NCBI RefSeq assembly: GCF_024124825.1
Contig: NZ_JAMXSS010000002.1
Span: 744,001 to 808,000 of the forward strand
DNA: 64,000 bases
From: Arthrobacter sp. H16F315
Lineage (GTDB): Bacteria > Actinomycetota > Actinomycetes > Actinomycetales > Micrococcaceae
Direction: 5' to 3'
The position numbers and the translations under genes are program-made. Below, one piece after another: positions 3,788 through 50,619 of the stretch. The notes under the pieces were generated by a model that worked only from the letters and a program-made list of their open reading frames with translations, was not told the DNA's origin and searched no databases. The first letter of the stretch is position 1. Every line of letters begins with the position of its first letter.

Positions 3788-3855
3788 CCTGCCGCCCGGA
3801 TGAGCCGGGATGATTTCCGCGGACGCGGCCGATACGGTGGAGCTGGGCAACGCCA

Positions 3856-3865
3856 GGACATGTCC
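3856..3865. repeat. Second copy of the GGACATGTCC palindrome
   Basis: A perfect 10-bp palindrome identical to the one at 2193-2202. It lies 33 bp upstream of the alcohol dehydrogenase start, so it may be a dispersed repeat or an operator. Confidence 0.45.
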
Positions 3866-3897
3866 ACTCTCTGAGGGCTCCCAACTGAAAGGGAACA

Positions 3898-5010: not shown

Positions 5011-5160
5011 CCTGCCCCCACCCGCCGTTCCCACCGGGTGAGGCTACCGGGTCCCAACGCCGCACCGGAAACATCATCCAGTGACAGCGCACCGCGAAAT
5101 GACTTGCCCCGGGGCGCCGCGAATGTGACAATCCCGCGGCACACTGTCAGCATTAAGTAA

Positions 5161-6630: not shown

Positions 6631-6634
6631 GCCG

Positions 6635-7495: not shown

Positions 7496-7514
7496 TTGGC
7501 CGCTGGTCCGGGCT

Positions 7515-8057
7515 TCAGACCGCAACGCCGGTGTAGCGGACACTACCGGCCACGATCGAGATGATCACGATCACCAGGACTGTCAGGGCTATGCCCACAT
7601 AGCCCAGGACAAGCCCGGCGATGGCCATGCCTTTTCCGCCGGGCTCGCGCCTCAGCGCCAGATGCCCCAGGATGACGGCCGCAATTTGGGGCAGGATAAA
7701 AAATCCCAACCCCACAAGGGCGGCGATGCCGCAGCATAAGCTGGCAATGCTCAGGCCCTTGGGTTCGGCGGGGAGCCCGTAATATGCCGGCTGGCCGTAG
7801 GCGTTAAACGCGCCGCCGGCCTGCCCGTACGGGGCGGGCGCGCCGGACGGCGACTGCCCATAGGGCGACTGCCCATAGGGCGGCTGCCCGGACGGCTGTT
7901 GCGGTGCCGCAGCATAGGGCGCGCCGTAGGGTGCGGCGGGCTGGCCATAGCCCGGGGCGGGCCAGCCGTGCTGCCCCACTCCCGGTCCCTGCCCTGTGGC
8001 CGCCGGACCGTAGCCCTCCGGTGTGTCGCCGTTGCCGTGTTTTGGCTGCTCGGTCAT
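7515..8057 (-). CDS. DUF4190 membrane protein with Pro/Gly/Tyr-rich N-terminal tail
   Basis: A 180-residue protein. The first about 100 residues are low-complexity, rich in Pro, Gly, Tyr, Gln and Ala, with repeated PYGQSPYGQ units. Two transmembrane segments follow (IASLCCGIAALVGLGFFILP and GLVLGYVGIALTVLVIVIIS), separated by the LGHLALRREPGGKGMAIAG loop typical of DUF4190. The start at 8057 is backed by GAGGGGAAATCC. Function is unknown; members often sit in the membrane with a disordered cytoplasmic tail. It is divergent from the phosphoglucomutase gene. Confidence 0.8.
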   Translation of the reverse strand: MTEQPKHGNGDTPEGYGPAATGQGPGVGQHGWPAPGYGQPAAPYGAPYAAAPQQPSGQPPYGQSPYGQSPSGAPAPYGQAGGAFNAYGQPAYYGLPAEPKGLSIASLCCGIAALVGLGFFILPQIAAVILGHLALRREPGGKGMAIAGLVLGYVGIALTVLVIVIISIVAGSVRYTGVAV

Positions 8058-8190
8058 GGATTTCCCCTCTTGAAGCCTCTGGACCCAGAGTACCGCCGAG
8101 CTGTTCCGCGGGCAGGCCATTTCTTCGTCATAGGAGCCGCAATCCGCCGAAATCGTGTTGACTGCCCCTTCGGTCTGGCATGCTGGTGCC

Positions 8191-9862
8191 ATGGCTAGCC
8201 GCGCGGGCACTGTTGCCCAACCCCAAGACCTTGTTGACATCACTGCGCTACTGGACGCGTACTACGACGTATCCCCCGATCTGACGGACCCGGGCCAACG
8301 GGTGGCCTTCGGCACCTCCGGCCATCGTGGCTCCAGCCTGAAGGCATCCTTCAACGAACCCCACATCCTTGCCATCACCCAGGCAATCGTGGAGTACCGG
8401 GCAGGCCAGGGCATCACCGGACCGCTGTACCTGGCCAAGGACACCCACGCGCTCAGCGAACCGGCGCAGAATTCGGCCCTCGAGGTCCTCGCGGCCAACG
8501 GCGTGCACGTGCTGATCGACGCCCGGCACGGCTACACACCCACCCCGGCGCTGAGCCACGCGATCCTCACACACAACAACAACTCTGCCGCCGGTGCCCC
8601 CCAGGCTGATGGCATCGTGGTAACCCCCAGCCACAACCCGCCCGGCGACGGCGGGTTTCGGTACAACCCCCGCACGGCGGGCCTGCTGACACCGACGCGA
8701 CCGGCTGGATCGCCAACCGCGCCAACGAACTGCTGGAAAACGGCTTGCGCGGGGTCAAGCGGATCGCCCTCGCCGAGGCCATGGGCGCCGGCACCACGGG
8801 AAAGTTCGACTTCCTCAGCAGCTACGTGGACGATCTCCCCTCCGTCCTGGACCTCAATGCAATCCGGGAGGCCGGCGTCCGGATCGGCGCCGACCCGATG
8901 GGCGGCGCATCGGTGGACTACTGGGGCGAGATCGGCGAACGCCACCACCTGAACCTCACAGTGGTCAATCCCACCGTCGACCCGCAGTGGGCCTTTATGA
9001 CACTCGACTGGGATGAAAAGATCCGGATGGACTGCTCCTCGCCGTCGGCGATGGCATCACTGATCAACAGGATGGCTGCTGGTGCGGACGGGTCCGCAGC
9101 CTTCGACGTCGCCACCGGAAATGACGCCGACGCCGACCGGCACGGCATCGTGACGCCCTTTGTTGATGGACAGGGCGGGCTGATGAACCCGAACCACTAT
9201 CTCGCCGTTGCGATTGACTACCTGTACCGACACCGGACCGGCTGGAACCCGCAGTCCGTGATCGGCAAGACGCTGGTGTCCTCATCCATCATCGACCGGG
9301 TGGCTGAAAGCCTGGGACGCAAGCTGGTTGAGGTGCCGGTCGGTTTCAAATGGTTCGTCCCCGGGCTCCTGTCCGGGGAGGGGCCTTCGGCGGCGAGGAA
9401 TCTGCCGGCGCATCGTTCAACAAAAAAGACGGCAGCGTGTGGACCACGGACAAGGACGGCATCCTGCTGGCCCTGCTGGCCTCGGAGATCACAGCGGTGA
9501 CGGGCAAGTCGCCGTCGCAGCTCTACCAGGGCCTCACCGATCAATTCGGCGACCCGGTCTACGCACGGATCGACGCAGCGGCCACCCGGGAGCAGAAGGC
9601 CGCACTCGGCAAGCTGTCGCCGTCGGACGTTACCGCCACGGAACTGGCAGGTGAAACAATCACGGCCAAGCTGACCGAGGCGCCGGGCAACGGGGCGGCG
9701 ATCGGCGGGTTTAAGGTCGTCACGGAGAACGCCTGGTTCGCGGCCCGTCCGTCCGGTACCGAGGACGTTTACAAAATCTATGCCGAGTCCTTCAAGGGCG
9801 CGGAGCACCTCAAGCAGGTCCAAGCCGAGGCAAAGGCGCTGGTGGACGGCGTCATTTCCTGA
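8191..9862 (+). pseudogene. pgm: Phosphoglucomutase (alpha-D-glucose-specific), interrupted by two single-base frameshifts
   Basis: Interconverts glucose-1-phosphate and glucose-6-phosphate. Read with two frame changes, the sequence matches the E. coli Pgm type from end to end: FGTSGHRGS, the phosphoserine loop [38 protein letters not shown] and [14 protein letters not shown]. The first break is in the C run at 8667-8671; one more C restores [15 protein letters not shown]. The second is in the G run at 9380-9383; one more G restores [12 protein letters not shown]. With two bases added, the gene encodes 557 residues, the normal length. Both breaks are homopolymer losses, so a sequence error is likelier than a dead gene. 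Confidence 0.9.
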
Positions 9863-18708: not shown

Positions 18709-19713
18709 CTAGAGGTCGATGGAAATCACGGCGCGTTCGGTGGCGGCCGCAGAACGGGCTCCGGTGTCGGAGCTGACTGCCCGTGAGACGCAGCAGCACA
18801 TCTTCGCCGCGGCGTGCTGCTGGCGCTCACTGTAGAAGACGTCCCGGTGGTCAATGGAGCCCTGGACACCAAGAAGCCGGACTTCACAGAGCCCGCATTC
18901 GCCTTTGCGGCAGTCGAACATCACGTCGACGCCGGCATCCTCAAGGGCTTCCAGCATGGACTTGCCGGCGCCGACGGTTGCCTCTACCCCCAGGCGAGGG
19001 ACCCGGACCACAAATTCCTCCGGGTCAAACCAGCCGCTGTTGCCGAAGGTCTCGTACCGCAGGTTCGGCAGGCTGAGTCCGCGCGCTTGCCAGCCGCGTT
19101 TTACGGCATCCATCAGCCGAATCGGCCCGCACATATAAAGCTCCGACTCCGGGTCCACCCCGGCCAGCAGCTCGTCGACGTTCAGCGCCGTGCCTTCATC
19201 GTCCACGTGCACGCGCAGGGCCTCACCGTGGAGCTCCTCGAGCTGCGGCAGGTAGGCCATGGCAGCGCGGCTGCGGCCTGCATAGACCAGGACGTACTCG
19301 GCCTTGATGTTCCTCAGGACCCGGGCCATATTGACCATCGCGGTGATACCGATGCCGCCGGCCAGCAGGACATACCGCGGCGCACCGACCCGGAGCGGAA
19401 AATTCTGCAGCGGCTGCGTGATCTCCAGCCGGTCCCCGACCTGGAGTTCCTGCATAAAGACCGCCCCGCCCCGGGATTGCGGGGACAGGAAGACGCTGAT
19501 GGCCAACTGCTGCCCGTCCTCGCTGGAATCCACGACGGAGTATGAGCGCTTCTGGCGTTCACCGTTTATTGTCACCATCACGTCGATGTGCGTGCCGGGC
19601 TCCGCCCTCCTGGGCAGGGCCGGCGCGATGACCAGGCGCCTGGTCTGCGCGGTAAGGGACTCCGCCTCGACGACGGTGCCCGCCTGCCAGACTTCTGTGT
19701 TTGTTGCTGCCAT
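18709..19713 (-). CDS. vanB: Vanillate O-demethylase reductase component (PDR/VanB family)
   Basis: Electron-transfer partner of VanA. The 334-residue protein has an FMN-binding reductase domain (KRSYSVVDSS), an NAD-binding part (YVLLAGGIGITAMVNMARVL, LYMCGPIRLMDAV) and a C-terminal plant-type [2Fe-2S] domain. Its first three cysteines are in DCRKGECGLCEVRLLG, with a fourth further on in MCCCVSRA. This FMN-NAD-[2Fe-2S] order is the phthalate dioxygenase reductase layout. It starts 46 bp after the vanA stop in the same operon. General PDR enzymes serve other Rieske oxygenases, but the context makes VanB the best call. Confidence 0.88.
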   Translation of the reverse strand: MAATNTEVWQAGTVVEAESLTAQTRRLVIAPALPRRAEPGTHIDVMVTINGERQKRSYSVVDSSEDGQQLAISVFLSPQSRGGAVFMQELQVGDRLEITQPLQNFPLRVGAPRYVLLAGGIGITAMVNMARVLRNIKAEYVLVYAGRSRAAMAYLPQLEELHGEALRVHVDDEGTALNVDELLAGVDPESELYMCGPIRLMDAVKRGWQARGLSLPNLRYETFGNSGWFDPEEFVVRVPRLGVEATVGAGKSMLEALEDAGVDVMFDCRKGECGLCEVRLLGVQGSIDHRDVFYSERQQHAAAKMCCCVSRAVSSDTGARSAAATERAVISIDL

Positions 19714-19759
19714 GTCGTTCTTCTAACTTCTCAGCGGATCCGGAACAGCGGGAAGGCAA

Positions 19760-20863
19760 TCAGGTGGTCGGGATGAGCCGGCCCTCGGCGGCCAGCTGGC
19801 GCTCGATCAGGCGACGGACCCACATCCCGCCGGCATCGATGTTCAGGTTGTAGAACTCGTAATCCGGATTTGCATCAATTGCTTCCTGCTGTGCCTTGAG
19901 CATGGCTTCGTCCTCGCCAAAGACGCCGTGGACGCCGTCGCGCAGCTGGGTGGTGATGAGCTGGCTTTCCAGCCGGTAGTTGCGCATAAAGGCCCAAAAG
20001 TAGTGACAGGTCTTGGCACTTTCCGGCGAGATGGTATTCATCACGAAGCCGTTTACGCCCTGGCTGCGGTCACCTTCGGGCGCCCCGGTACCCGCCTTGG
20101 CGACGCCCACGTCGATGTTGATTGTCGACGGCGACTGGAAGGTAATGATCTGCCAGCGGTCCACCCGGCCTTCGAAGCCCGGGAACTTGTCCCGCATGTT
20201 CTTGAGCCAAAACGGCGGGGCGTCAATATCCAGCATCCAGCGGGAGACCGTGACCGTGTTGCCGTCCTGCGTGACGACGAAGTCAGATTCGCTTAATTCG
20301 TCCTGGCCGATGGACGAGGAATGGACGAACTCCTCGTGGGTGAGGTCCATCAGGTTATCAAGCACCAACTGGTAGTTGCAGGGGGCGAAGATCGTCTCGC
20401 CGTCGCCGGCCCAGCCGTCGGAACTCATCTGGTGCATGTCGGGGATAAGACCCGGATCGGCCCGGGTGGGGTCACCCAGCCAAACCCAGACGTAGCGGTA
20501 CCGTTCAATCACCGGAAACGAGGGCACTGTCGCACTCGGGTTAATGGTTTCCTGGGCCGGCATCGACACGCAGCGGCCCGCGGAGTCGTAGATGATGCCG
20601 TGGTACGGGCACTGGATCTGGTCCTTCGCCAGGGTCTTGCCCATGGACAGCGGGGCCAGACGGTGCCAGCACGCGTCCGCGAGGGCCACTGCCTTGCCAT
20701 CCTCGGTGCGGTACAGGGCCAGCGGCCGGTCGGCGATCCGGCGCGGCATCGGCTTCCTGGTGACCTCGTGGTCCCACGCGGCCACGTACCAGGCGTTCAG
20801 TGGATAGCCCAGCACCTTGTTCGTCGTCGAGCTCACAGACTGCATCATTGCCGTCATGGTCAT
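19760..20863 (-). CDS. vanA: Vanillate O-demethylase oxygenase component (Rieske monooxygenase)
   Basis: Demethylates vanillate to protocatechuate and formaldehyde with electrons from VanB. The 367-residue protein has the Rieske ligands as C65-x-H67 (ACWHRLAPLS) and C85-x2-H88 (QCPYHG), and the mononuclear iron motif DNLMDLTHEEFVH. The C-terminal part is the long helical/beta fold of VanA-type oxygenases. AAGGA abuts the first ATG; an ATG at 20857 has better spacing and may be the true start. It is divergent from vdh, with two operator-like palindromes between them. Syringate or other methoxy-aromatics could also be substrates. Confidence 0.92.
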   Translation of the reverse strand: MTMTAMMQSVSSTTNKVLGYPLNAWYVAAWDHEVTRKPMPRRIADRPLALYRTEDGKAVALADACWHRLAPLSMGKTLAKDQIQCPYHGIIYDSAGRCVSMPAQETINPSATVPSFPVIERYRYVWVWLGDPTRADPGLIPDMHQMSSDGWAGDGETIFAPCNYQLVLDNLMDLTHEEFVHSSSIGQDELSESDFVVTQDGNTVTVSRWMLDIDAPPFWLKNMRDKFPGFEGRVDRWQIITFQSPSTINIDVGVAKAGTGAPEGDRSQGVNGFVMNTISPESAKTCHYFWAFMRNYRLESQLITTQLRDGVHGVFGEDEAMLKAQQEAIDANPDYEFYNLNIDAGGMWVRRLIERQLAAEGRLIPTT

Positions 20864-23405: not shown

Positions 23406-24755
23406 ATGCAATTGCAGGAACGCATTGACGCGTCACGCATGTCGTTGTACCAATGGCTCATCGTCGGTTTGTGCATTGTGCTGAACGCCTTGGACGGCTT
23501 CGACGTCCTGGCCATGGCCTTCACCGCCAACAGCGTCACCCGCGATTTTGGCCTCAGCGGCGCAGAACTTGGTGTCCTGCTCAGTGCCGGGCTGGTCGGC
23601 ATGGCCATCGGTTCCTTGGGCCTGGCCCCCTTCGCTGACGTCATCGGACGCCGGCCAATGGTCCTTGTCTCCGTCGCCCTTGCCGCCGCAGGAATGCTGC
23701 TCGCCTCCCTCTCCCATTCGGCCGTCGAACTCGGGATCTGGCGGATCGTGACCGGCCTGGGCATCGGCGGCATCCTCGCCTGCACCAACGTGATCGCCAG
23801 TGAGTACTCATCCAAGCGCTGGCGCGGTCTGGCTATCAGCATCTACACCGCCGGATACGGCGTGGGGGCAACACTGGGCGGCGCAGCTGCCGTTACCCTG
23901 CAGGCCAGTTTCGGCTGGCGCTCGGTGTTTCTTTTCGGCGGCATCTGCACCGCCGCCGTCTTTGTACTGCTCGCCTTCCTCCTGCCGGAGTCCGTGGACT
24001 TCCTGGCCACCAGAAGGCCCCGCAATGTTGTGGCCAGGCTGAACCGGATCGCCCGCAAGATCGGGCAACCGGCAGTGACTGAACTGCCACCCGCAGCCGC
24101 ACCGGCCGGGCGCAGGAATAAGGTGTCCGAGCTCTTCACCGCCGGAACCCGACGCTCCACCTGGCTTGTCTGGCTGGCCTTCTTCGCCGCCATGTTCGGC
24201 TTCTACTTCGTCAACAGCTGGACTCCGCGACTTCTGGTCACGGCCGGAATGACCGAGAGCCAAGGCGTGATCGGCGGCCTTATGCTCACCCTGGGCGGTA
24301 CTTTCGGGTCGCTGCTCTACGGTTTGCTGACCATCCGCTGGAACAGCCGCAAGGTGATGGTCGTCTTCGCCGTCCTCTCCGCGGCCACCATGGTGATGTT
24401 CATTTCCACTGCGGGAATCCTGGCCCTCGCCTTTGTCGCCGGCGGAGTCGTGGGCATGCTGATCAACGGCTGCATTGCCGGCATGTACACCATCACCCCC
24501 GCCTTGTACGGTGCCTCCATCCGGAGCACCGGCGTCGGCTGGGCCATCGGAGTCGGCCGGGTGGGCGCGATCGTCGCGCCGCTGATCACCGGCGCCCTCC
24601 TGGACGCACACTGGACCGCGTCCATGCTCTACATGGGAGTCGGCGTTGTGGTGCTGGTGGCCGGCGGCGCCGTGGCCGCGATGCGCCCGGGCCCCGCCGA
24701 GACCACAACAGCGGCTACAGCCGCGGCCGAGGAAAGCCTGGCGTCGGCGCCCTGA
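23406..24755 (+). CDS. Aromatic acid:proton symporter, VanK/PcaK-like (MFS)
   Basis: A 449-residue MFS carrier of the aromatic acid:H+ symporter family, likely importing vanillate or protocatechuate. Family marks are the first-helix LDGFDVLAMAFTANSVTRDF with its DGxD core, APFADVIGRRPM between helices 2 and 3, GLGIGGILACTNVIASEY, and the second-half FGFYFVNSWTPRLLV. Twelve hydrophobic segments are visible. AGAAAG lies about 10 bases before the ATG. It is divergent from padR, with two operator-like repeats between, so it is probably controlled with vanAB and vdh. The name VanK fits by context. Confidence 0.88.
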   Translation: MQLQERIDASRMSLYQWLIVGLCIVLNALDGFDVLAMAFTANSVTRDFGLSGAELGVLLSAGLVGMAIGSLGLAPFADVIGRRPMVLVSVALAAAGMLLASLSHSAVELGIWRIVTGLGIGGILACTNVIASEYSSKRWRGLAISIYTAGYGVGATLGGAAAVTLQASFGWRSVFLFGGICTAAVFVLLAFLLPESVDFLATRRPRNVVARLNRIARKIGQPAVTELPPAAAPAGRRNKVSELFTAGTRRSTWLVWLAFFAAMFGFYFVNSWTPRLLVTAGMTESQGVIGGLMLTLGGTFGSLLYGLLTIRWNSRKVMVVFAVLSAATMVMFISTAGILALAFVAGGVVGMLINGCIAGMYTITPALYGASIRSTGVGWAIGVGRVGAIVAPLITGALLDAHWTASMLYMGVGVVVLVAGGAVAAMRPGPAETTTAATAAAEESLASAP

Positions 24756-40590: not shown

Positions 40591-42111
40591 CTAGACCTTC
40601 CGGTGGATCGACTTGTAGCTCAAGTAGGCGGTGAGGCCCTCGACCCCGTACTCGGTGCCCAGCCCGGAATCGTGCCGGCCGCCGAAAGGAGCCGCATGGT
40701 TGGAAGCGAAGAAGTTGATGCCCACCGAGCCGGTGTCCATCCGATCCGCCACGGCCAGCGCTGCCTCCTGATCACGGCCGAACACCAGCCCGCCGAGGCC
40801 GAATTCCGTGTTGTTCGCCAGCGCAACCGCCTCATCAACGCTGCCACCTGCGTCGTTGTATTTGAGGATGCAAATCACCGGACCGAATATCTCCTCCCGG
40901 GAGATCCGCATGTCCGGCGTAACGTCGGCAAACACTGTGGGTTCCACGAAGTAGCCGCCTTCCAGCCCGCCGCCCAGTGCCGCGCGGCGACCGCCGGTGG
41001 TAGCTCGGGCGCCCTCGGCCAGGCCCGACTCCACGAATTCCAGCACGGTCCGGTACTGGGATTCCGTGGCGCACGGCCCGAAGACCGTGTCCGGATCCAG
41101 CGGGTCGCCCTGCTTTCCGGCCGCGATGGTGCTGGTGACCATGGCCACCACCTCCTCGTACCGGCTGGCCGGCGCCAGGATCCGGGTCGAGATGTAGCAG
41201 GTCTGCCCCGTGTTGCGCATGGAGGAGCGGATCAGGACTTTGGACATTTCCTCAAGATCGGCGTCCGGCAGCACGATCGCACTGGACTTCCCGCCGAGCT
41301 CCAGGGTCACGGGACGCAACAGCTCGCCGCAGGCCGCCGCGATCTTCCGGCCAACCGGCGTCGAACCCGTGAAGGCCACCTTGTCCACTCCCGGGTGCTT
41401 CACCAGCGCATCGCCCAACCGTCCGGAGCCGGTGACGAGGTTAACGACGCCGGCAGGAACACCAGCCGCTGCGATCGCATCGATGATCACCCGGAGCGAC
41501 AGCGGGGTGGGCGACGCCGGCTTGATCACCACGGTGCAGCCGGCCAGCAGCGCCGGGGCGAGCTTGATCACCACAAGGTTGATCGGGAAGTTCCAGGGCG
41601 CGATCAAGGCGCAGACGCCGATCGGTTCGCGCCGGACTACGGATTCGCCGCCGCCCCGGGGGAAAGCCCGCACGTCCTCCCGCTCAAGGTAGCCGGCCAG
41701 GCCTGCGAAGTAGCGAAAGATGCCCGCGGCGTTGGCCGCCGCCCCGGCGGACTCCGAGACCGGAGAACCGTTCTCGCGGGTGTTGGTCAGCGACAGTTCC
41801 CCGGCGCGCTTCTCTACCTCTTCGGCAATGCGCAGCAGGTACGCAGCGCGGTCCGAGGGTGACAGCCGCGGCCACTCCCCGCCATCGAAGGCCGTGCGTG
41901 CGGACTCGACGGCGGAGTCGACGTCCGCGGCGGTTCCGTCCGGGACGGAGCCCCATACTTCGCCGGTGGCGGGGTCGGTGACGGGGTTGCGGCCGGTGCC
42001 GCCCGCGGACCTCCAGGCGCCGTCGACGAAGATGTTGTCAACGTGCGTGTACGGCAGCTGAAGGGCGGCGCGGAGGGCCAGGGCAGGGCTGTTTTGTGTG
42101 GCGGCAGTCAT
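40591..42111 (-). CDS. creC: Aldehyde dehydrogenase of the cresol operon (CreC-like, 4-hydroxybenzaldehyde to 4-hydroxybenzoate)
   Basis: A 506-residue ALDH. Visible are APWNFPINLVVIKLAPALLA, the FTGSTPVGRK loop, catalytic Glu in TLELGGKSSAIV and catalytic Cys in NTGQTCYISTRIL, then FGPVICILKYND. It is the last gene of the P450-kinase operon and its ATG overlaps the HD phosphohydrolase stop (ATGA), so it is tightly coupled. In the C. glutamicum cre pathway the equivalent enzyme finishes oxidation of the methyl group to 4-hydroxybenzoate. The substrate is inferred from context. Confidence 0.87.
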   Translation of the reverse strand: MTAATQNSPALALRAALQLPYTHVDNIFVDGAWRSAGGTGRNPVTDPATGEVWGSVPDGTAADVDSAVESARTAFDGGEWPRLSPSDRAAYLLRIAEEVEKRAGELSLTNTRENGSPVSESAGAAANAAGIFRYFAGLAGYLEREDVRAFPRGGGESVVRREPIGVCALIAPWNFPINLVVIKLAPALLAGCTVVIKPASPTPLSLRVIIDAIAAAGVPAGVVNLVTGSGRLGDALVKHPGVDKVAFTGSTPVGRKIAAACGELLRPVTLELGGKSSAIVLPDADLEEMSKVLIRSSMRNTGQTCYISTRILAPASRYEEVVAMVTSTIAAGKQGDPLDPDTVFGPCATESQYRTVLEFVESGLAEGARATTGGRRAALGGGLEGGYFVEPTVFADVTPDMRISREEIFGPVICILKYNDAGGSVDEAVALANNTEFGLGGLVFGRDQEAALAVADRMDTGSVGINFFASNHAAPFGGRHDSGLGTEYGVEGLTAYLSYKSIHRKV

Positions 42112-42881
42112 CGGATGACTGCCGTCTTCAGCAGGGCATTGGAGCGGTCCAGGTCGGCGCTGGCCATGTCGTGGGCGGCCTGGGTGATGAGTTCGGGCAC
42201 TATTTCCGCGGCCAGGCGGTCGGTGTAGGTAGCGGGGTCCAGCTTGAACCAGGACGAGGCCAAGGCAACCCCGGCCTGGTCGAAGCGCCACAGCCGGTCT
42301 GCGTCGCGCATCAACGCGTCCTCAAGGGACTTGGCTACCGGGCGGGTGTCGTGGCCGTCGATGATCTCGCAAACGCGGTCAATGAACTCGGTGTTATAGC
42401 CCAGGCCCGGGAGCACCCGCCGGGCGACCTCGCAGCCCTGCTTCTCGTGTTCGTAGCGGATGGCGGCCTTGCGCCAATCCCCAGCGAAACCCTCTGAGAT
42501 GATGCGGGACTCATCCACGTGGGCCCAGCCGGTATCGTGCAGCAGGGTGGCCACCCGGACCAGCTCAGCGTCAGCGGCGGGGTAAGCCCGGCAGAGCCTT
42601 TCGGCGAAGGCGAGGGAGATCGGCAGGTGGATGTCATTACCGCGGGTACGCGTCTCGTGCACTACGGTGCGCCAGAGCCCGTCGAGATCCCCGAGCGCTG
42701 CCGGGGTGGTGGCGATCGGGGCGGTGTCTACCGGTCCCGGCGCCGGGACCGGCCGGACCGGGTATGCGGCTGCGAACTCCGCAGCCGCGGAATCAACAGC
42801 CGCGGGACTGGTTCCAGCCGGATTTTCGGAAACCGGGTTCGCGGCGCCGGTGGCGGCAGCCGAGGTGTGGGGGGCAGTCAT
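42108..42881 (-). CDS. creD: HD-domain phosphohydrolase (CreD-like, aryl phosphate dephosphorylation)
   Basis: A 257-residue protein with an HD metal-phosphohydrolase domain after a 60-residue Ala/Pro-rich leader. Likely metal ligands are His85, His115-Asp116 (LLHDTGW), His145 (RYEHEKQG), His177 (IDGHDT) and the Asp in MRDADRLWRFD. In the cre system CreD removes the phosphate from the oxidised aryl phosphate, releasing the free phenol. GAAGGAGAATC precedes the ATG. Gene order between ferredoxin reductase and aldehyde dehydrogenase matches the C. glutamicum cluster. The long leader may be an unstructured extension, or the true start may be internal. Confidence 0.85.
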   Translation of the reverse strand: MTAPHTSAAATGAANPVSENPAGTSPAAVDSAAAEFAAAYPVRPVPAPGPVDTAPIATTPAALGDLDGLWRTVVHETRTRGNDIHLPISLAFAERLCRAYPAADAELVRVATLLHDTGWAHVDESRIISEGFAGDWRKAAIRYEHEKQGCEVARRVLPGLGYNTEFIDRVCEIIDGHDTRPVAKSLEDALMRDADRLWRFDQAGVALASSWFKLDPATYTDRLAAEIVPELITQAAHDMASADLDRSNALLKTAVIR

Positions 42882-42911
42882 GATTCTCCTTCGGGTGGGC
42901 AGGCCTGCTGG

Positions 42912-44252
42912 CTAGCTGTCCGTGGTGATCGTTTTGAGGGGCGTCGTTGGGTCGGCAGCGGCGCCGGCGGGGATGTTGCGCCCTTGGGCAAGGGCGTTTT
43001 TGACGGCCATAAAGTCCAGCGGAGCATTAACGCAGTCCGCGGCTATGACCTGGCCCAGGCGGTAGTAGAGAACGCTGAATTTGCCGCGTTCCCTGTCCGG
43101 CCGCAGCACCGTCTGGTCGTAGCCGTTGCAGAGCCCGGCGATCTGGAGTTTCAGCTCGGCCTGGTTGGACCAGAACCAGGGGATGCCGGCGTATTCCTCG
43201 CGCCTGCCGGTGAGGGAGTAGGCGGCCACCTTGGCGTGTTCAATCGCATTGTTCACGCTTTCCAGCCGAATCCGCTCACCCGGTTCCGAGCCGGGCACGG
43301 GGTTGGGCATGTTGGCGCAGTCGCCGATCGCCACCGTGGTGCCGTCCGATGCCAGTGCGAAACGGTCCACAACGATCCCGTTGTCCACGGCGAGGCCAAG
43401 CTGTTCTGCGAGTTGGGTGTTGGGGCTGACGCCGATGCCCACCAGCACGATCTGCGCCGCCAACACCGTGCCGTCCTGGAGCTCGACGCCGGCGACGGCG
43501 ACGGCGCCTGCGTTGCCTGCGGCTGCGGTGAAGCGTTTGGCGCTTGTATTGAGCCGGATGTCCAGGCCGCGGGCGCGGTGGGCCTGCAGGAAGTACTCGG
43601 CGGTTTCCTCGCCGACGGCGCGGCCCACCAGCCGCGGGCCGAATTCCAGCACGGTGACGTTTTTGCCCATTTTTTGCAGGCTCGACGCAGCTTCGAGGCC
43701 GATGAACCCGCCGCCGATCACCACAACATCCTGCGCGTCCCCCACCCGGGCCTTGAGCGCCAGCGCGTCGTCGGCGTTGCGCAGATAGAGCACGCCGTCG
43801 AGGTCGCCGCCCGCTATTTCCAGTTTCCGGGCGCGGGCGCCCACCGTGAGGGCGAGGCGCTTAAAGGGGAATTGCCTGCCCGAGGTGGAATAGGCGACGC
43901 CAGAGCCGTCTGCGTCCTTGTCAATCCTGACAATGTATTCGGCTTTGACCAGCTCCACGTTGTGCTCGGCCCAGTAGTCGTTGGAGCGGAAGATGAGGGA
44001 TTCGCTCCCCACCGTGCCCTGCAGGAACTCCTTGGACAGGGCCGGGCGCTGGTAGGGTCGGTGGTCCTCATCGCCGAGCAGGGTGATGTGTTCCTCGAAA
44101 CCAAGCGCCCGGAGCGATACCGCGAGCTGGACGCCGGACTGGCTGGCGCCGATGATAAGCAGGCCGGTGCGGGTCGGGCTATCAGTTTCGGTACCGGCTG
44201 CGCCGGCGGTTCCGGCGGACGCCTGCTGCGCCGCGGCAACATGGGTGCCCAT
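42912..44252 (-). CDS. creE: NAD(P)H:ferredoxin reductase of the P450 system (CreE-like)
   Basis: A 446-residue FAD-dependent reductase like putidaredoxin reductase. An FAD-binding GASQSGVQLAVSLRALGF starts near residue 35, an NAD-binding VVVIGGGFIGLEAASSLQKM lies near residue 175, and the second FAD motif is VAIGDCANMPNPVPG. It should pass electrons from NAD(P)H to the ferredoxin encoded just upstream. The ATG at 44252 immediately follows the ferredoxin stop (TAGTGATG). The reductase domain order and length are normal; the C-terminal reductase domain begins with the IPWFWSNQ segment. Confidence 0.9.
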   Translation of the reverse strand: MGTHVAAAQQASAGTAGAAGTETDSPTRTGLLIIGASQSGVQLAVSLRALGFEEHITLLGDEDHRPYQRPALSKEFLQGTVGSESLIFRSNDYWAEHNVELVKAEYIVRIDKDADGSGVAYSTSGRQFPFKRLALTVGARARKLEIAGGDLDGVLYLRNADDALALKARVGDAQDVVVIGGGFIGLEAASSLQKMGKNVTVLEFGPRLVGRAVGEETAEYFLQAHRARGLDIRLNTSAKRFTAAAGNAGAVAVAGVELQDGTVLAAQIVLVGIGVSPNTQLAEQLGLAVDNGIVVDRFALASDGTTVAIGDCANMPNPVPGSEPGERIRLESVNNAIEHAKVAAYSLTGRREEYAGIPWFWSNQAELKLQIAGLCNGYDQTVLRPDRERGKFSVLYYRLGQVIAADCVNAPLDFMAVKNALAQGRNIPAGAAADPTTPLKTITTDS

Positions 44253-44254
44253 CA

Positions 44255-44575
44255 CTACACCTGCGTTTCCGGGGTGGTGATGAACAGTTCGAGCTCATCG
44301 GTGAGGCGGAGCTGGCAGGACAGGCGCGAGTTGTCCGCACGGTCCACAGCGGTGCCGTAAAGCATCTCGTCTTCCATGTCCTCCATGGCCGGAAGCTGCG
44401 AGAGGCAGTCCTCCCGGACAAAAACGTGGCAGGTGGCGCAGGAGAGCGAACCGCCGCACTCGGCCACGATGCCGGTGACGCCGTTGCGCACTGCGGTCTC
44501 CATGACCGAGTCGCCGGCGTTGCCCTGGACGTCGCGGACTGCGCCCGCGGCGTCGGTGAAATGAACCGTTGGCAT
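44255..44575 (-). CDS. creF: [2Fe-2S] adrenodoxin-type ferredoxin (CreF-like)
   Basis: A 106-residue ferredoxin with the cluster cysteines C40, C46, C49 and C87 (C-x5-C-x2-C-x37-C), in AECGGSLSCATCHVFV and LSCQL, the putidaredoxin/adrenodoxin spacing. It shuttles electrons from the reductase to the P450. The acidic MEDMEDEML segment between the third and fourth cysteines is the usual partner-docking helix. AAGGAGGACCA precedes the ATG. It lies between the SDR and the reductase genes. Confidence 0.93.
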   Translation of the reverse strand: MPTVHFTDAAGAVRDVQGNAGDSVMETAVRNGVTGIVAECGGSLSCATCHVFVREDCLSQLPAMEDMEDEMLYGTAVDRADNSRLSCQLRLTDELELFITTPETQV

Positions 44576-44622
44576 TGGTCCTCCTTGGATTGAAAAGCGG
44601 AAAGGTGAGGTCAAGGGCGGGG

Positions 44623-45396
44623 TCAGATGAACTGGCGGCCGCCGTCGACCACCATGGTCTGGCCGGTGTAGTAGGAACTGTCCGGACCGGCCAGGAAAAG
44701 GGCCGCGCCCACGATGTCCTCCGGCTGGCTGGCCCGCTTGATGGCGCCCCGGTCCACACCGTAGTTTTCGGCGTCCGCCATCAGCCCGTAGCTTGCTTCG
44801 GTCAGGGTGAAGCCCGGGGCGATCGCATTGACCGTGATTCCCCGGCGGCCCAGTTCCTTGGCCATCACCCGGGTTAGGGCCACCACGCCGCCTTTGGAGG
44901 CGACGTAGTGCAGCCACTGCTCCGAGCCACTGAAAACGGTGGCGCTGGAGAGGTTGATGACGCGCCCGCCCTCGGGCAGGTACGGGCTCGCGGCCCTCGT
45001 GACGAGCCACGGGCCCTTGAGGTTGACGTTCATCACCAGGTCCCATTCGGCCGGGTCGATGTCCTCGAACGGGCTGCGGGTCACTCCGGCGTATACCGCG
45101 GCGTTGTTGAGCACAACGTCGATGCTTCCGCTGCCGAAATCCGCGCAGCTTTTCGCCAGCGCCTCGGTGGAGCCGACGCTGGTAACGTCGGCGTGGAGGG
45201 CGACGGCATCGGCACCGGTAGCCAGGACCAGCCTGGCAGTTTCCTGTGCACCGTCGAGGTTTACGTCCGCCACCGCCACGCGGTAGCCGCGGCGGCCGAA
45301 GCCGAGCGCGAACGCCCGGCCGAGCCCGCCGGCGGCACCGGTGATCAGGACGGTGCGGGCAGGCTGCCCCGCACCGTCCAACTGCGGATCAGACAT
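44623..45396 (-). CDS. creG: Short-chain dehydrogenase (CreG-like, 4-hydroxybenzyl alcohol oxidation)
   Basis: A 257-residue classical SDR. It has the cofactor loop TGAAGGLGRAFALGF, DV followed by NNAAVYAG, the active site Ser in NLSSATVF and the YVASK catalytic Tyr-Lys pair. NAD is favoured because an Asp (VADVNLDG) follows the second strand. In the cre pathway the alcohol dehydrogenase converts 4-hydroxybenzyl alcohol to the aldehyde. The ATG at 45396 overlaps the end of the preceding gene by 8 bp; a GTG at 45414 is an alternative. Confidence 0.86.
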   Translation of the reverse strand: MSDPQLDGAGQPARTVLITGAAGGLGRAFALGFGRRGYRVAVADVNLDGAQETARLVLATGADAVALHADVTSVGSTEALAKSCADFGSGSIDVVLNNAAVYAGVTRSPFEDIDPAEWDLVMNVNLKGPWLVTRAASPYLPEGGRVINLSSATVFSGSEQWLHYVASKGGVVALTRVMAKELGRRGITVNAIAPGFTLTEASYGLMADAENYGVDRGAIKRASQPEDIVGAALFLAGPDSSYYTGQTMVVDGGRQFI

Positions 45397-47257
45397 GGCT
45401 GTGGCTGTGCGCACCCGGTCCGGCGATGACCAGTTCGTCTTCGGCGTCGAGGATCTGGACCGTGCCCTTCGTGCCGTCCACGCGAAGCCGCTGCCCGGTC
45501 TTGATTGTGGTGGACGCCGAGCCGGTGCCGGTCACGGCCGGCAGGCCGTATTCCCGGCAGACGATCGCCGCGTGGCTCATCATGCCGCCGATGTCCGTTA
45601 CCGTGGCCTTGATCTTGCCGAAGATCGGCCCCCAGGACGGTGCCGTGACGGTGGCCACCAGGATTTCGCCCTGCTGCACCTCGGATAGCTGGTCCGCGTC
45701 GGTGATGACGCGTGCCAGGCCTTCCACGACGCCGGGTGAGGCGGCCATGCCGCGCAGACCGCCTCCTTCGACTGCTTCGCCGGCCCCAAGCCATTGCTGG
45801 ACCTGTTCGGTGGTGATGCCCCAAAGCATCCGGGTGAAGGGTTCGGTGATGATCTCCGGCGGGGTGTTCAGTGCCGGGGCGGGCCGGGCGGTTTTGAGCG
45901 CATCCACGATCCCGCGGCGGCGCTCGATTTCCTCCGGCCAGTAGTCCGGACCAATGGGCTTCGCGCCGACACCCCATCCGGTGACGAGGTCGAAGAGCGC
46001 GTCACGGACCTCGTTGCGGCCCAGGTAGAGCAGGTCGTCCGGTTCGGTCCAGAAGCCTTCGGCCTGCATCATGCGGGACAGTTCGCGGATCTTGCGCCAG
46101 AAGACGCCCATGGTCCAGTGCTCGATGTAGAAGTTGTGGTTCTCCACGTACGGGTAGGCGGTGGCGGCAAGGCCGCGCTTGGCGTCGAAAAGTGCCAGGT
46201 TTTCGCCTTCGAGCAGGTCCCGGTATTCCCCGATGATGCGGTCGCGTTCGATGATCAGGGCCTCGACCGGCCGCATGATCTCCTGGCCCTCGTCCACGCG
46301 GCGGATGTAGTCGGCGATGTAGCCGAGCGGGATTTCCTGGTGTTCGTTCCAGTACTTGTCGTGGCCGTAGAAGCCGTTGCCCACGGTGAAGTTGAACCAC
46401 GGGTCCTTGGCGGCCTCGTACTGGGCCGTCCAGCGGTCCCCGCCGGGGGCCGCGGCGATGGCCGCCAGGGTGGACCCGACGTCGTCGGTGTTGCCGAAGA
46501 GCGACTGCAGCTTAAGTTCGACGGCCAGTTTGGCCAGCCCCTTCAGCTCGTCATCCGGGCGGAAGAGTTCCATGTCCACGCCCTGGACCATCGTGGCGAT
46601 GGACTGGTCGGGGATGTTGGGGAAGACCTGCTTGCAGAAGTTGAAGAAGTCCAGGTAGGCAATGTAGCCGAGGTTGAGGAACTCGAAGTGGTACTGCCAG
46701 TTCTGGTAGGCCAGCTGGATCAGCCGGTCGTAGCTCTCAAGCAGCCTCTCGGAGCCGTCCTTGCCCTTGCCGGAGAGGATGTCCTCGATCGGGACCACGT
46801 CCGGGAGCTTGGGGAAGGAGATGGTTTCCATCTCGTCGATGGTCCCCTTGACCTTGATGTGCCACTGCTTGAGGAGCTCGTCCCAGTTCTGGAAGTAGTG
46901 GCCAACCCGCTGCTCGAACAGGGGCACCCGCGCGGCGATCTGGTCCTCGGGCACCGGGATGGGCGACATGTAGAGGTAGCCCAGGTGGACCCGGAATTCG
47001 ATGCCGTTGGCGTTGGGGATCATCAGGTGCCGGGCGTTGTACTGGCCCAGGCACTTGACCGCGAATTCGCCGCCGATGGTCTCGAAGGGCTTGAACACAG
47101 TGGGCCAGTGCTGGCTGTCGCAGAACCAGAACTTGGCGTCCTCCTGCTCCTTGAGCTTGTCCTGGAACACCAGGTAGTAAGGGTAGATCTTTTCCCAGCC
47201 CTCGGCGCCGGCGGGGACCGCAAGCTCGGAGGGCTTGGGGAAGGATTTCAGGGACAT
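45389..47257 (-). CDS. creH: PEP-utilising aryl-phosphate synthase subunit with phosphohistidine domain (CreH-like)
   Basis: A 622-residue protein ending in a PEP-synthase/PPDK-type swivelling phosphohistidine domain: DIGGMMSHAAIVCREYGLPA with the phosphorylated His at about residue 562. The first 450 residues form a separate helical domain that I infer binds the phenol acceptor. Together with the next gene, which has the ATP-grasp part, it forms a split kinase that moves phosphate from ATP via His to the phenol oxygen, analogous to phenylphosphate synthase and the acetovanillone kinases. The C terminus ends in a His-rich HSHSHV. GAAAGGACCGCC precedes the ATG. Confidence 0.88.
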   Translation of the reverse strand: MSLKSFPKPSELAVPAGAEGWEKIYPYYLVFQDKLKEQEDAKFWFCDSQHWPTVFKPFETIGGEFAVKCLGQYNARHLMIPNANGIEFRVHLGYLYMSPIPVPEDQIAARVPLFEQRVGHYFQNWDELLKQWHIKVKGTIDEMETISFPKLPDVVPIEDILSGKGKDGSERLLESYDRLIQLAYQNWQYHFEFLNLGYIAYLDFFNFCKQVFPNIPDQSIATMVQGVDMELFRPDDELKGLAKLAVELKLQSLFGNTDDVGSTLAAIAAAPGGDRWTAQYEAAKDPWFNFTVGNGFYGHDKYWNEHQEIPLGYIADYIRRVDEGQEIMRPVEALIIERDRIIGEYRDLLEGENLALFDAKRGLAATAYPYVENHNFYIEHWTMGVFWRKIRELSRMMQAEGFWTEPDDLLYLGRNEVRDALFDLVTGWGVGAKPIGPDYWPEEIERRRGIVDALKTARPAPALNTPPEIITEPFTRMLWGITTEQVQQWLGAGEAVEGGGLRGMAASPGVVEGLARVITDADQLSEVQQGEILVATVTAPSWGPIFGKIKATVTDIGGMMSHAAIVCREYGLPAVTGTGSASTTIKTGQRLRVDGTKGTVQILDAEDELVIAGPGAHSHSHV

Positions 47258-47325
47258 GGCGGTCCTTTCAGTGCGGGCTCGGCGTTGAGCCTGGGTGAGG
47301 GAGCGGGATAGGGGGTCAGGACTTG

Positions 47326-48387
47326 TTAGATGAGCTGGCGGGGGCTGAGTCCGCTGAAGTAGCCGCCAGCGGCAGCAGCCGACGGGACAGTCGGCTTGGA
47401 GGAATGCACCGTCTCGGGGCGGGACTGGAGCAGGAGCAGGTTTTCGCCGTCGGGCAGGTCGCCGTCGAGTGCCCATTCGATGTCCTGCGGGCATTTGTAG
47501 TGCTTCTCCGCGCGCTTGGCCATCTGCGCGACGGCCGCGAGTTCGGCGTCGCTGAGGCTGCGGCGGCCGCGGCGGTCGGCGTCGACCTCCCGTTCCACCA
47601 GGCGGCCGGCCGCGGCGTCGGGGACGAGTTCGGCGTGCTTGTCGCCGAGGTGTTCGAAGATGACGGCCAGGGTGACCTTGTCCAGCATGATGTTGTCCGG
47701 GGTGACCTGGCCGGAGACCACCATTTCGCCGACCCCGTAGGAGGAGTCGATGGTGATCTTGGAGCGGTCGCCGTTGGTGGGGTCCATGGTGATCGCGACG
47801 CCGGAAACACGGGCGTTGACCATCTTCTGCACCACCACGGCCATCGACAGGCCCTCGTTGGGGATGTTGTTCCGGAGCCGGTAAATGATTGCGCGGGAGG
47901 TAAAGAGTGAGGCCCAGCACTGCCTGATGTGCTCGGTGACGGCCTTGACGCCGTCGAGCCAGAGATAGGTGTCCTGCTGGCCGGCGAAGGAGGCGTCCGG
48001 GAGGTCCTCGGCCGTGGCACTGGACCGCACGGCGACCGGGACCGGCTCCTCAAAGCGGGACATCAGGGCGTTATAGGCTCCGACGGTGAGCTCGCGCATC
48101 GCCTGCGGCACCGGGCGGGAGCAGATGTCCTCGCGGATGGCGGCGGAGACCTTATCCACCTGGCCCATGTCCCCGGGGTCCAGATCGGCAAGGAGCTGGT
48201 GGATATGCCGGGTGATGCCGGCTTCTTCCATAAACGCATCGAACTGCGCGGTGGTGACGACGAAGCCGGGAGGGACTGGCATTCCGGCGGAAGTCATCGT
48301 GACCAGGGAGGCGCCCTTGCCGCCCAAGTTTTCAAGTTTCGGCTCGATGCCGCCGTCGAAGAACTGGATGTATTCGTTGCTTTGCAT
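47326..48387 (-). CDS. creI: ATP-binding subunit of the aryl-phosphate synthase (CreI-like, PPDK ATP-grasp domain)
   Basis: A 353-residue protein made of the pyruvate phosphate dikinase N-terminal ATP-grasp domain alone. It has LGGKGASLVTMTSAGMPVPP near residue 18, VAVRSSATAEDLPDASFAGQ near residue 115, VSGVAITMDPTNGDRSKI and the C-terminal DIEWALDGD and LLLQSRP motifs. It would use ATP to phosphorylate the His of the partner subunit. It lies between the P450 gene (stop 4 bp upstream) and the CreH-like gene. The split of PEP synthase into two proteins is the diagnostic feature of this pathway. Confidence 0.88.
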   Translation of the reverse strand: MQSNEYIQFFDGGIEPKLENLGGKGASLVTMTSAGMPVPPGFVVTTAQFDAFMEEAGITRHIHQLLADLDPGDMGQVDKVSAAIREDICSRPVPQAMRELTVGAYNALMSRFEEPVPVAVRSSATAEDLPDASFAGQQDTYLWLDGVKAVTEHIRQCWASLFTSRAIIYRLRNNIPNEGLSMAVVVQKMVNARVSGVAITMDPTNGDRSKITIDSSYGVGEMVVSGQVTPDNIMLDKVTLAVIFEHLGDKHAELVPDAAAGRLVEREVDADRRGRRSLSDAELAAVAQMAKRAEKHYKCPQDIEWALDGDLPDGENLLLLQSRPETVHSSKPTVPSAAAAGGYFSGLSPRQLI

Positions 48388-48391
48388 GTTT

Positions 48392-49670
48392 TTAGGCCTT
48401 CCAGCTGACGGGGACGGTCTCGGGGACGCGGAAGGAGAGGTTTTCGCGGAAGGTGGTGGCATCCGGCCTCTCCAGCTGCAGCCCGGGGGCGAGCCGGGCG
48501 ACTTCCTCGAGGGCGATTTTGGCCTGCAGCTTGGCGAGCATATTGCCCAGGCAGTAATGGATGCCGAACCCGAAGGACAGGTGTTCGCGGGCATTGGTGC
48601 GGGTGATGTCGAAGTCCTCGCCGGAGCTGAACTTGCCCTCATCGCGGTTTGCGGCGCCCATCAGGAGCAGCAGCTGCGAGCCTTCCTCGATCGCGACGCC
48701 ACCGACTTCGGTGTCTTTGAGGGCTTTGCGCCGCCACCCGACGATCGATCCGGCGTAGCGGAGGACCTCGTCGATGGCGGCAGGGATCGTCTTGGGGTCT
48801 GCTACGAGCTGCTTCCACTGCTCGGGGCGGGCCAGGAGTTCACGGAGGGCGTTGGAAATCAGTGTGGTGGTGGTCTCGTGGCCGGCGAAGAGCAGGCTGT
48901 AGAGGACGGAGGCGATCTCGTGGTCGGAGATCTCGGCGCCTTCCTGCTGCGATTTCACCAGGTCGGCGGTGAGGTTGTCGCCGCCGTCCTGGTGGGCCAC
49001 CCTGACCAGGCGGAGGCATTCCTGCCAGTACTCCACGAGGTTGTGGGCGTGCAGGATCTGTTCCTCGTCGCTGAGGTCGCCCCAGGTCATCGCGGCGCGG
49101 GAATCACTCCAGCGTTTGAAGGTGTCCACCTGGGACACCTCCGCTCCGATCAGGGTCAGGATGGTGATGGTGGGGACGTCGTAGGCGAGGTCCCTGACCA
49201 TGTCGCCGCGGTGGTCCGGGCTGGCAAGCATCTTCTCCAGCAGTTCGACGACGTTCTGCCGGATAAAGGGTTCCAGCGCCTTGTAGCGCCGGGGGAGTGA
49301 AGGCCTTTTGGACCACGGCACGGATGCGGGTGTGCTCCGGCGGCCGGCGGGCGGACAGGCCCGAGTAGGCGGTGAAGCCGCCGTCTTCCATGATCTTCTT
49401 TGCTGCGGCGCCGCGTTCGCGGACGGGGGCCTGGGCATTTTCGCTGGAGAAGGTCTGCCAGTCGTCGAACACGGCTTTGATGTCGTCGTAGCGGGAAACA
49501 ACGTAGAGGCCAATCCGCTCGTCGAACATCACCGGCTGCTCGGCCCGGAGTTCGGCGTACGCCGGAAACGGATCCTTCATCTGGAACGGCTCGTAGCCAT
49601 GGTGCCCGGCGGGGGCTTCGGCGCCGTGACCATAGGGGCAGCGGCCGGCCGTTTCAGTCGACGATGACAT
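48392..49670 (-). pseudogene. creJ: Cytochrome P450 of the cresol operon (CreJ-like), with a one-base frameshift
   Basis: The oxygenase that hydroxylates the methyl group of the aryl phosphate. The N terminus (MSSSTETAGRCPYGHG, then GLYVVSRYDDIKAVF) is in one frame and the rest (ALEPFIRQNVVELLEKM onward) in another. Removing one base from the run at 49291-49295 joins them as QKAFTPRRYKALEPF, giving 425 residues. Key motifs are intact: the oxygen-binding FAGHETTTTL, the ExxR in DEVLRYAG and the heme loop FGFGIHYCLG with Cys373. AGGAGCCCAG precedes the ATG. Likely functional in the organism; the break is a homopolymer insertion. Confidence 0.9.
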
Positions 49671-49765
49671 CTGGGCTCCTAGATTTTTGGTCCCGCCGGC
49701 AGCGGCAGTGCTTGCCGGGGGTTCTTATTCATCAGTGTGGCCCCGATCACCAGCGCCGGACAGGA

Positions 49766-49790
49766 CTGGCTTCCACTCAGTGGAAGCCAG
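49766..49790. promoter_or_regulatory. Perfect 12-1-12 inverted repeat between the IclR gene and the P450 gene
   Basis: CTGGCTTCCACT-C-AGTGGAAGCCAG, 96 bp upstream of the P450 start. The TTCCA/TGGAA core resembles IclR-family operators. It could also fold as a hairpin after the regulator gene, but no U tract follows. Confidence 0.72.
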
Positions 49791-49821
49791 TTGTCTTCCG
49801 TCCCGGTGGGACGGCGACGGC

Positions 49822-50619
49822 TCAGGCCGTGCCGGCGAAGTTGCTGCCGAGCAGCGTTTCCAGCGGGATCCGGGCCGTGGCGCGCTCGATCTGAGCGGCG
49901 ATGCCCCGCAGGACGGGCAGGTGCCGGGTCATCGTGTCGGCCTGGCTGGTGGGCAGCACCAGTCCGATCGAGGCGCCAATCCGGCCGGTATGGAAGACCG
50001 GGACGGCGATCGAGCAGGAGCCCAGCCGGACTTCCTCCAAGGTCGTGGCGTAGCCCTGCTCGCGGATCCGGGTCAGCTCCCCGGACAGCTTCCTGGGGTC
50101 CACGTGGGTGTGGGCGGTGTGCCGCTCCAGCTGCCGGTTCAGGTAGGCCTCGCGGACCCAGTCCACCTCGAAGGCCAGGATGACCTTTCCGACGGCGGTT
50201 GCATGCATGGGCAGCCGGCCGCCGACCCGGGAGGCCCGCGGGACCCGCCTGGAGCCGTAGACACGATCGATGTAGAGCACCTCATGGCCGGCCCGGACCG
50301 CCAGGTGCGCGGTTTCGCCGGTGAGCGAGAACAGATCCTGGACGTAGGGACGGGCCGCATCGCGGAGCTGCCGACCGGTGTTTTGGGCCAGTTCCCAGAG
50401 CCGGATGCCGAGCTGGTAGCGGCCGTTGGGCTCGCGGGAGAGGAGCCCCCAGTCGGTGAGTTCGTTGACCAGGCGGTGGGCAGTGCTCAGCGGCAGCCCG
50501 GACTTTTCGGCAATGTCGGTGAGGCTGAGAGCGCCCCGGGACTTTTCAAAGGCTTCCAGGATGGCGAGGACTTTCGAGGTTACGGTCCTGCCGGGTTCAC
50601 GGCTGCCGCCGGCCATCAT
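49822..50619 (-). CDS. IclR-family transcriptional regulator of the cre-like operon
   Basis: A 265-residue IclR protein. The N-terminal winged helix reads VTSKVLAILEAFEKSRGALS, then LPLSTAHRLVNELTDWGLL. The C-terminal effector domain has RLPMHATAVGKVILA and SCSIAVPVFHTGRIGASIGL. GAGGAGGTC precedes the ATG. It lies directly upstream of the P450 gene, in the same direction, with a perfect inverted repeat between, so it probably controls the operon in response to a phenol or its product. It may be equivalent to CreR, which I cannot confirm from sequence alone. Confidence 0.9.
   Translation of the reverse strand: MMAGGSREPGRTVTSKVLAILEAFEKSRGALSLTDIAEKSGLPLSTAHRLVNELTDWGLLSREPNGRYQLGIRLWELAQNTGRQLRDAARPYVQDLFSLTGETAHLAVRAGHEVLYIDRVYGSRRVPRASRVGGRLPMHATAVGKVILAFEVDWVREAYLNRQLERHTAHTHVDPRKLSGELTRIREQGYATTLEEVRLGSCSIAVPVFHTGRIGASIGLVLPTSQADTMTRHLPVLRGIAAQIERATARIPLETLLGSNFAGTA

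Follow-up and report, generated by a model that had tools for sequence, protein, structure and literature searches.

Organisation of the locus

The window analysed here, i.e. the whole stretch of 64,000 nucleotides from contig NZ_JAMXSS010000002.1 of Arthrobacter sp. H16F315, harbours at positions 40591-50619 a cre-type operon which is predicted to convert 4-cresol to 4-hydroxybenzoate. All of its genes lie on the minus strand, and there are nine of them if that of the IclR-family regulator is counted. A first-pass annotation of this DNA had spoken of eight, which is correct for the catalytic genes only. Strand, order and families of the genes as given there are confirmed by the open reading frames and by matches to Pfam and NCBIfam models. 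The features are listed below from the regulator gene onwards; loci and genomes compared are referred to by L and G numbers, L104 and L167 being loci of Corynebacterium, and 5xjn and 5gwe are solved P450 structures.

49822..50619, minus strand: IclR-family regulator (CreR-like), 265 amino acids; Pfam HTH_IclR and IclR_C
49765..49791, no strand assigned: perfect palindrome of 27 bases between the IclR and P450 genes, core TTCCACTGAGTGGAA (49771-49785), candidate IclR operator
49293..49670, minus strand: cytochrome P450 (CreJ-like), N-terminal piece, residues 1-126; 78% identity to 5xjn over 104 residues
48392..49294, minus strand: P450 (CreJ-like), C-terminal piece with AGHETTTT and the heme loop FGFGIHYCLG; 76% identity to 5xjn/5gwe, 509-514 bits
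47326..48387, minus strand: CreI-like ATP-grasp subunit of a phenol kinase, 353 amino acids; Pfam PPDK_N; cre group with support 100/99
45389..47257, minus strand: CreH-like phosphohistidine/substrate subunit, 622 amino acids, His562; Pfam PEP-utilizers; cre group with support 100/100
44623..45396, minus strand: short-chain dehydrogenase/reductase (SDR), CreG-like (4-hydroxybenzyl alcohol dehydrogenase); Pfam adh_short_C2; 74-76% identity to L104 and L167
44255..44575, minus strand: [2Fe-2S] ferredoxin, CreF-like; Pfam Fer2; 65-69% identity
42912..44255, minus strand: ferredoxin reductase, CreE-like; Pfam Pyr_redox_2 and Reductase_C; 68-70% identity; start either GTG at 44255 or ATG at 44252
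42108..42881, minus strand: HD phosphohydrolase, CreD-like; Pfam HD; 63-64% identity
40591..42111, minus strand: aldehyde dehydrogenase, CreC-like; Pfam Aldedh, 513 bits; 71-72% identity

Downstream of the P450 gene the successive junctions are a gap of 4 bases, a gap of 68, an overlap of 8 (CreH-like and SDR genes, 45389-45396), a gap of 47, one of about 2 (or a 1-base overlap), a gap of 30 and an ATGA overlap (HD and aldehyde dehydrogenase genes, 42108-42111). Both longer overlaps had been given in the first-pass annotation, while the 4-base gaps said to occur at the remaining junctions are found between the P450 and CreI-like genes only. Key motifs are in place as claimed, namely the heme loop of the P450, the TDIGGMMSH stretch of the CreH-like subunit which contains His562, the CX5CX2C motif plus the fourth cysteine of the ferredoxin and the HD pair of the phosphohydrolase. 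The CreH-like protein reaches 1292 bits with NCBIfam model NF006150 (cut-off 650), whose function is unnamed. The best NCBIfam match of the IclR protein is the PcaR/PcaU/PobR family with a score under its cut-off; to the IclR proteins adjoining cre in Corynebacterium it is 59% (L167) and 64% (L104) identical.

Assignment to the cre type

The two pieces of the P450 share 81 of 104 and 227 of 298 residues, respectively, with 5xjn/5gwe, and the C-terminal piece scores 509 bits against these structures compared with 184 bits for the next one. The entries are labelled "Cytochrome P450" only; we take them to be CreJ of C. glutamicum. As stand-ins for the further proteins of C. glutamicum we used L167, whose P450 is 96% identical to 5xjn (none of the six Corynebacterium stretches is identical to it), and L104. 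Identity to L167 amounts to 63-77% for the CreC- to CreI-like proteins of the window, to 74-76% for its P450 pieces and to 59% for its IclR protein.

In phylogenetic trees of the kinase subunits, comprising 44 rows for CreH and 49 for CreI with 31 cre rows in each, the cre rows including those of the window form one group with support values of 100/100 (CreH) and 100/99 (CreI). In both trees this group stands apart from the kinases associated with biotin carboxylase and from the phenylphosphate-carboxylase-associated kinase of Azoarcus (L168). The rows labelled hpe are, in contrast, scattered rather than forming a single clade (3 changes); of these labels, that of L058-L062 was assigned by similarity and L169 was labelled "other", a biotin-carboxylase homologue having later been found in all of L056-L063 and L169-L171. 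Several rows of the trees have long branches. The residue preceding the phosphohistidine is serine in 31/31 cre rows, while among the 11 rows with a biotin-carboxylase homologue it is cysteine in nine and serine in L170 and L171. In PMC12167813, HpeH is described with cysteine, and CreH as well as phenylphosphate synthase with serine, at this position.

Gene order was compared among named loci, i.e. the best 80 of 401 relatives from a scan of named genomes. Of these 80, 72 share the order of the eight catalytic genes. Five of the eight exceptions are located at contig ends; L142 is devoid of ferredoxin and reductase, and L086 and L140 are devoid of P450 and CreI although their contigs have room for them upstream of CreH. 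Regulator and all genes are found in order at 64/80 loci if any IclR match within 9 kb is accepted; in at least one case, L077 (38%), this match is unlikely to be the orthologue. Within the family, 51/295 genomes contain a CreH match at E <= 1e-50. The best match is of the cre type in 50/295, the own genome included (68-100% identity), while that of G001 reaches only 46%. The hpe-like kind of kinase is held by eight genomes of Micrococcaceae, seven of which possess the cre kind as well. In Corynebacterium, the genus of L104, 14/201 genomes match CreH at 1e-100. The cre identity which had been proposed in the first-pass annotation is thus borne out by the P450, by the kinase clades and by gene order: the locus is a genuine cre-type operon, and this type is widespread and already characterised, though the genome is new for it.

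An interrupted P450 reading frame

In the window the P450 gene is broken up into two frames, residues 1-126 being encoded at 49293-49670 and the remainder at 48392-49294. Compared with genome G208 of the same species (locus L035), in which the gene forms a single frame of 425 codons, a C run near 49295 is one base longer in the window, and this shifts the frame. The first-pass annotation, which had called the operon complete, overlooked this interruption, and the term has to be qualified accordingly. Both parts of the P450 were found in 74 of the 80 named loci and lie within the same frame in 74/74, which rules out programmed frameshifting.

Further genes are affected in a similar way. A crude rule combining an open frame with third-position G+C yielded 59 called genes in G208, 57 of which have a match in the window, and eight of these 57 are split there; the P450 is among the eight, and one gene carries two indels. 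The indels responsible sit mostly at homopolymers and in a few cases elsewhere; the split of an aldo/keto reductase sits upstream of the likely start of that gene. One-base length differences to the same-species genome, again mostly at homopolymers, occur at 2233-9384, 22915, 34795, 34942, 55363, 55715, 58560 and other positions. Together with the split genes, the accumulation of such differences suggests that base calling went wrong systematically in this assembly. Since the P450 forms one frame in G208 and in all 74 loci and since eight of 57 genes are split alike, an assembly error appears likelier than a real mutation as the cause of the P450 break.

If the break were real, the cre operon of this strain would be decaying and 4-cresol would not be usable. 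We consider this unlikely, even if the break stands in the given sequence, the extra base falls into a run of C where a slippage mutation is plausible and the P450 gained a base whereas most one-base differences in the window are missing bases. Besides the splitting of other genes, the lower completeness of the assembly (95.6% compared with 99% for G208) and the unbroken state of the remaining operon genes, which are 99-100% identical to those of G208, speak against decay. The broken P450 therefore serves as a caution, as a reading based on a single assembly could declare a working pathway dead.

Proposed pathway and its substrate

Gene content, homology, clade placement, conservation of the candidate operator and the lower-pathway genes, all of them read from sequence, point to an operon which very probably converts 4-cresol, and probably related para-alkylphenols, to 4-hydroxybenzoate. 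In the proposed pathway CreI would transfer phosphate from ATP to His562 of CreH and from there to the phenol oxygen. The P450, supplied by ferredoxin and reductase, would hydroxylate the methyl group of the aryl phosphate, the HD enzyme would strip the phosphate, and SDR and aldehyde dehydrogenase would take the resulting alcohol to the acid. The IclR protein is predicted to control the operon via the palindrome at 49765-49791. 4-Hydroxybenzoate would then be converted to protocatechuate by PobA, which is encoded elsewhere in the genome, and the ring of protocatechuate would be opened by the 4,5-dioxygenase route and not by the ortho route.

Two observations at other loci point to p-cresol as the entering and 4-hydroxybenzoate as the leaving compound. 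In Rhodococcus ruber the cre operon, carried there by the conjugative plasmid NZ_CP129900, adjoins genes of the toluene-4-monooxygenase type, an enzyme which makes p-cresol, and a PobA homologue (49-84% identity) is present in the fetched stretch of 18/80 named loci, a count that comes without a background rate. The own genome encodes PobA about 192 kb from the operon on the same contig; with 529.9 bits the protein passes the model NF006091 of the 4-hydroxybenzoate 3-monooxygenase subfamily (cut-off 351). An intradiol dioxygenase (PF00775) was found in 0/2 genomes of the species by a search which did match the control genome of C. glutamicum, nor did TIGR02422 match in the own genome. The latter does, in contrast, encode a fused protocatechuate 4,5-dioxygenase (877 bits, cut-off 837) beside a LigK-type aldolase which scores above its cut-off. 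C. glutamicum uses the ortho route for ring cleavage. Because an intradiol dioxygenase match is missing while 4,5-dioxygenase and LigK-type aldolase are present, the cre module of this species is predicted to feed a ring-cleavage route different from that of C. glutamicum. The phosphate-masking route for 4-cresol would accordingly represent a module which is conserved in many Actinomycetota and can be joined to a ring cleavage unlike that of C. glutamicum.

An operon dedicated to some other para-substituted phenol, such as 4-ethylphenol, 4-propylphenol or a methoxylated alkylphenol, with 4-cresol as an incidental substrate, seems improbable to us. According to PMC9549646, various p- and m-alkylphenols are oxidised by the system derived from C. 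glutamicum, and the window carries a vanillate-demethylase-like gene pair (18709-20863), both of which would suit such a role. Oxidation from methyl to carboxyl, however, fits the presence of SDR and aldehyde dehydrogenase, and the PobA homologues together with the toluene-4-monooxygenase-type genes in L173 indicate 4-hydroxybenzoate and p-cresol.

Several points nevertheless weigh against the assignment of 4-cresol conversion to this operon. The P450 as sequenced stops after about 126 native residues, with which the pathway would fail; PobA reaches 400 bits with the stricter model TIGR02360, whose cut-off is 538.7; the substrate of the operon in this strain is one that we infer; and the C. 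glutamicum sequences compared are the P450 structure entries, with L167 and L104 standing in for all others. Finally, since a CreD-like protein (64%) is also encoded in the hpe-type cluster L056, the CreD-like gene does not discriminate between the two systems.

Elsewhere in the window, the vanillate demethylase-like pair consists of a VanA_C/Rieske oxygenase and a ferredoxin-type reductase, and a gene resembling aromatic-acid transporters of the major facilitator superfamily, with a score under the family cut-off, is located at 23406-24755.

A candidate operator upstream of creJ

The 27-base palindrome between the IclR and P450 genes is the sole place in the window which matches with no more than two mismatches. 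Of 89 distinct regions upstream of creJ, 83 contain the motif TTCCACT-S-AGTGGAA or a variant of it, compared with 1.0 on average and 5 at most in 200 shuffles; under a stricter rule it is found in 52/89 regions with a shuffle maximum of 2. These regions remained from 109 loci offered after removal of those without a P450 start, with less than 60 bases or with identical last 150 bases. A site was defined as 15 bases whose ends agree with TTCC...GGAA in 7 or all of the 8 bases and in which 5 or more of the 7 pairs are symmetric, a rule set after the palindromes had been seen. As the loci are related and the shuffles preserve nothing but base composition, the counts are not to be read as probabilities. 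Among the 89 regions the candidate site is absent from L048, L055 and L139, and L076, L110 and L117 fail the symmetry rule. In some loci the two arms of the palindrome vary together, with ACT/AGT in L104 as in the window, GTT/AAC in L118 and L127 and GTC/GAC in L119; elsewhere at least one pair is unmatched. Of two operator groups of the IclR family, group 1 is given the consensus GKTYCRYW3-4RYGRAMC in PMC8222616, and CTTCCACTGAGTGGAAG of the window departs from it only in its two terminal bases and in the central base of the spacer.

These features make the palindrome a candidate operator of the IclR regulator, which is a strong and testable prediction. It is quite improbable that it merely constitutes the terminator hairpin of the IclR gene. 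Such a reading would be in line with its foldable sequence and its position directly after the IclR stop in the window, but the site is retained upstream of creJ in L043, L045, L050, L079, L087, L089 and L090, all of which are devoid of an adjacent IclR gene (it is weaker in L077 and L080, which likewise lack one, and L076 is the locus of this kind which fails symmetry). In addition, a run of T is absent at the palindrome in the window, and a similar site also precedes pobA.

The latter site, with two mismatches, is located at the end of another IclR gene, whose last codons as called it overlaps, just before pobA. Genome-wide, the pattern occurs at 10 places if up to two mismatches are allowed, while its reversed control yields 2. 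A degenerate form, TTCCRYTNARYGGAA, which was chosen when the cre and pobA sites had been seen, is found at 39 places in 59 genomes, the own one included, compared with 2 for the control. Among 26 such loci from other genomes, one per genome, 19 lie just before a PobA homologue, two beside another IclR homologue and five near neither. The IclR proteins of the cre and pobA loci are 31% identical and have STAHRLV in common, in the region which holds the recognition helix of the IclR family. We tentatively propose that both regulators might read the near-identical code TTCCRYTNARYGGAA and thereby join the phosphate-masking cresol pathway and the hydroxylation of 4-hydroxybenzoate in a two-regulator circuit with shared or competing sites in Arthrobacter-type bacteria, the same code possibly serving cre across Actinomycetota including Corynebacterium. 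A literature text search with spellings of the site and with creR combined with cresol and Corynebacterium gave no match, the 2014 genetic study of cre lying outside its coverage, so that a conserved control site may have gone undescribed so far. With it the cre operon, the inducer of which is called unknown for C. glutamicum in PMC7764795, would gain a predicted operator.

The surroundings of the regulator gene vary between loci. A second HD-domain gene (at least 50% identical to that of L173) is present in the stretch of 41/80 loci and lies within 700 bases of an IclR homologue in 37/80; loci in which it is located near the cre IclR gene include L069, L075, L126 and L173, and in L115 and L118 it sits between the candidate operator and the P450. 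No such gene is found in the window, where the sole match is creD with 38%. Genome G104 (L043, L057) contains a cre operon without an adjacent IclR gene and with the operator still upstream of creJ; a 76% identical IclR homologue is encoded about 53 kb from cre and a few kb from an hpe-type cluster.

Comparison with known systems

That the kinase pair is an ordinary phosphoenolpyruvate (PEP) synthase or rifampin phosphotransferase in two parts, the outcome against which the first-pass annotation had itself set its claim, can be dismissed: PEP synthase is indeed the top NCBIfam match of the CreI-like protein (342 bits, cut-off 598), but the CreI tree separates the 31 cre rows from five PEP-synthase-like rows with 100/99, and the CreH-like protein matches those families over some 60-140 residues only, at the swivel domain. 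Because both subunits fall into supported cre groups, they do not group with these enzymes, and their identity as single-chain enzymes is refuted as tested, all listed NCBIfam models scoring far under cut-off.

The hpe system (HpeHI, HpeCBA, HpeD) of Rhodococcus rhodochrous GD02 shares with the window the two-part ATP-dependent phenol kinase and the phosphohistidine motif, and the hpe-related cluster L056 contains, as does the window operon, an HD enzyme. The CreH-like protein is 45-47% identical to three hpe-type loci and belongs to a separate clade, and the operon possesses a P450 system where hpe has a carboxylase. No biotin-carboxylase homologue is found in the window at E 1e-20, while all of L056-L063 and L169-L171 contain matches. 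An hpe identity is ruled out by the missing biotin carboxylase, by serine instead of cysteine before the phosphohistidine and by the placement of the kinase in the cre group.

PpsAB, the phenylphosphate synthase of anaerobic phenol catabolism, is a homologous kinase pair; the subunits of the window are 45% and 50% identical to those of Azoarcus L168. In L168 the kinase adjoins phenylphosphate carboxylase genes, none of which is seen by Pfam in the window operon, and the trees separate it from cre; on these two grounds a Pps identity is likewise ruled out. As a side observation, L056-L063, L169, L170 and L171 encode further kinase pairs whose CreH subunits are 43-47% identical and whose stretches include a biotin-carboxylase homologue, and a distant pair (38% and 42%) is present in L172, a plasmid locus of the archaeon Haladaptatus, near genes for a Rieske dioxygenase, a metallophosphoesterase and a dehydrogenase; it possibly belongs to another phosphate-masking aromatic pathway.

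The counterpart in C. glutamicum is the cre operon, whose genes creC, D, E, F, G, H, I and J are tabulated at cg0637-cg0645 with products as expected here in PMC7764795. The window differs from it by the P450 which is split in the assembly, and its species by protocatechuate 4,5-cleavage genes combined with 0/2 genomes with PF00775. The eight types of catalytic gene and their order are shared between the window and cg0637-cg0645, and Corynebacterium L167 likewise has an IclR gene and a palindrome upstream of creJ.

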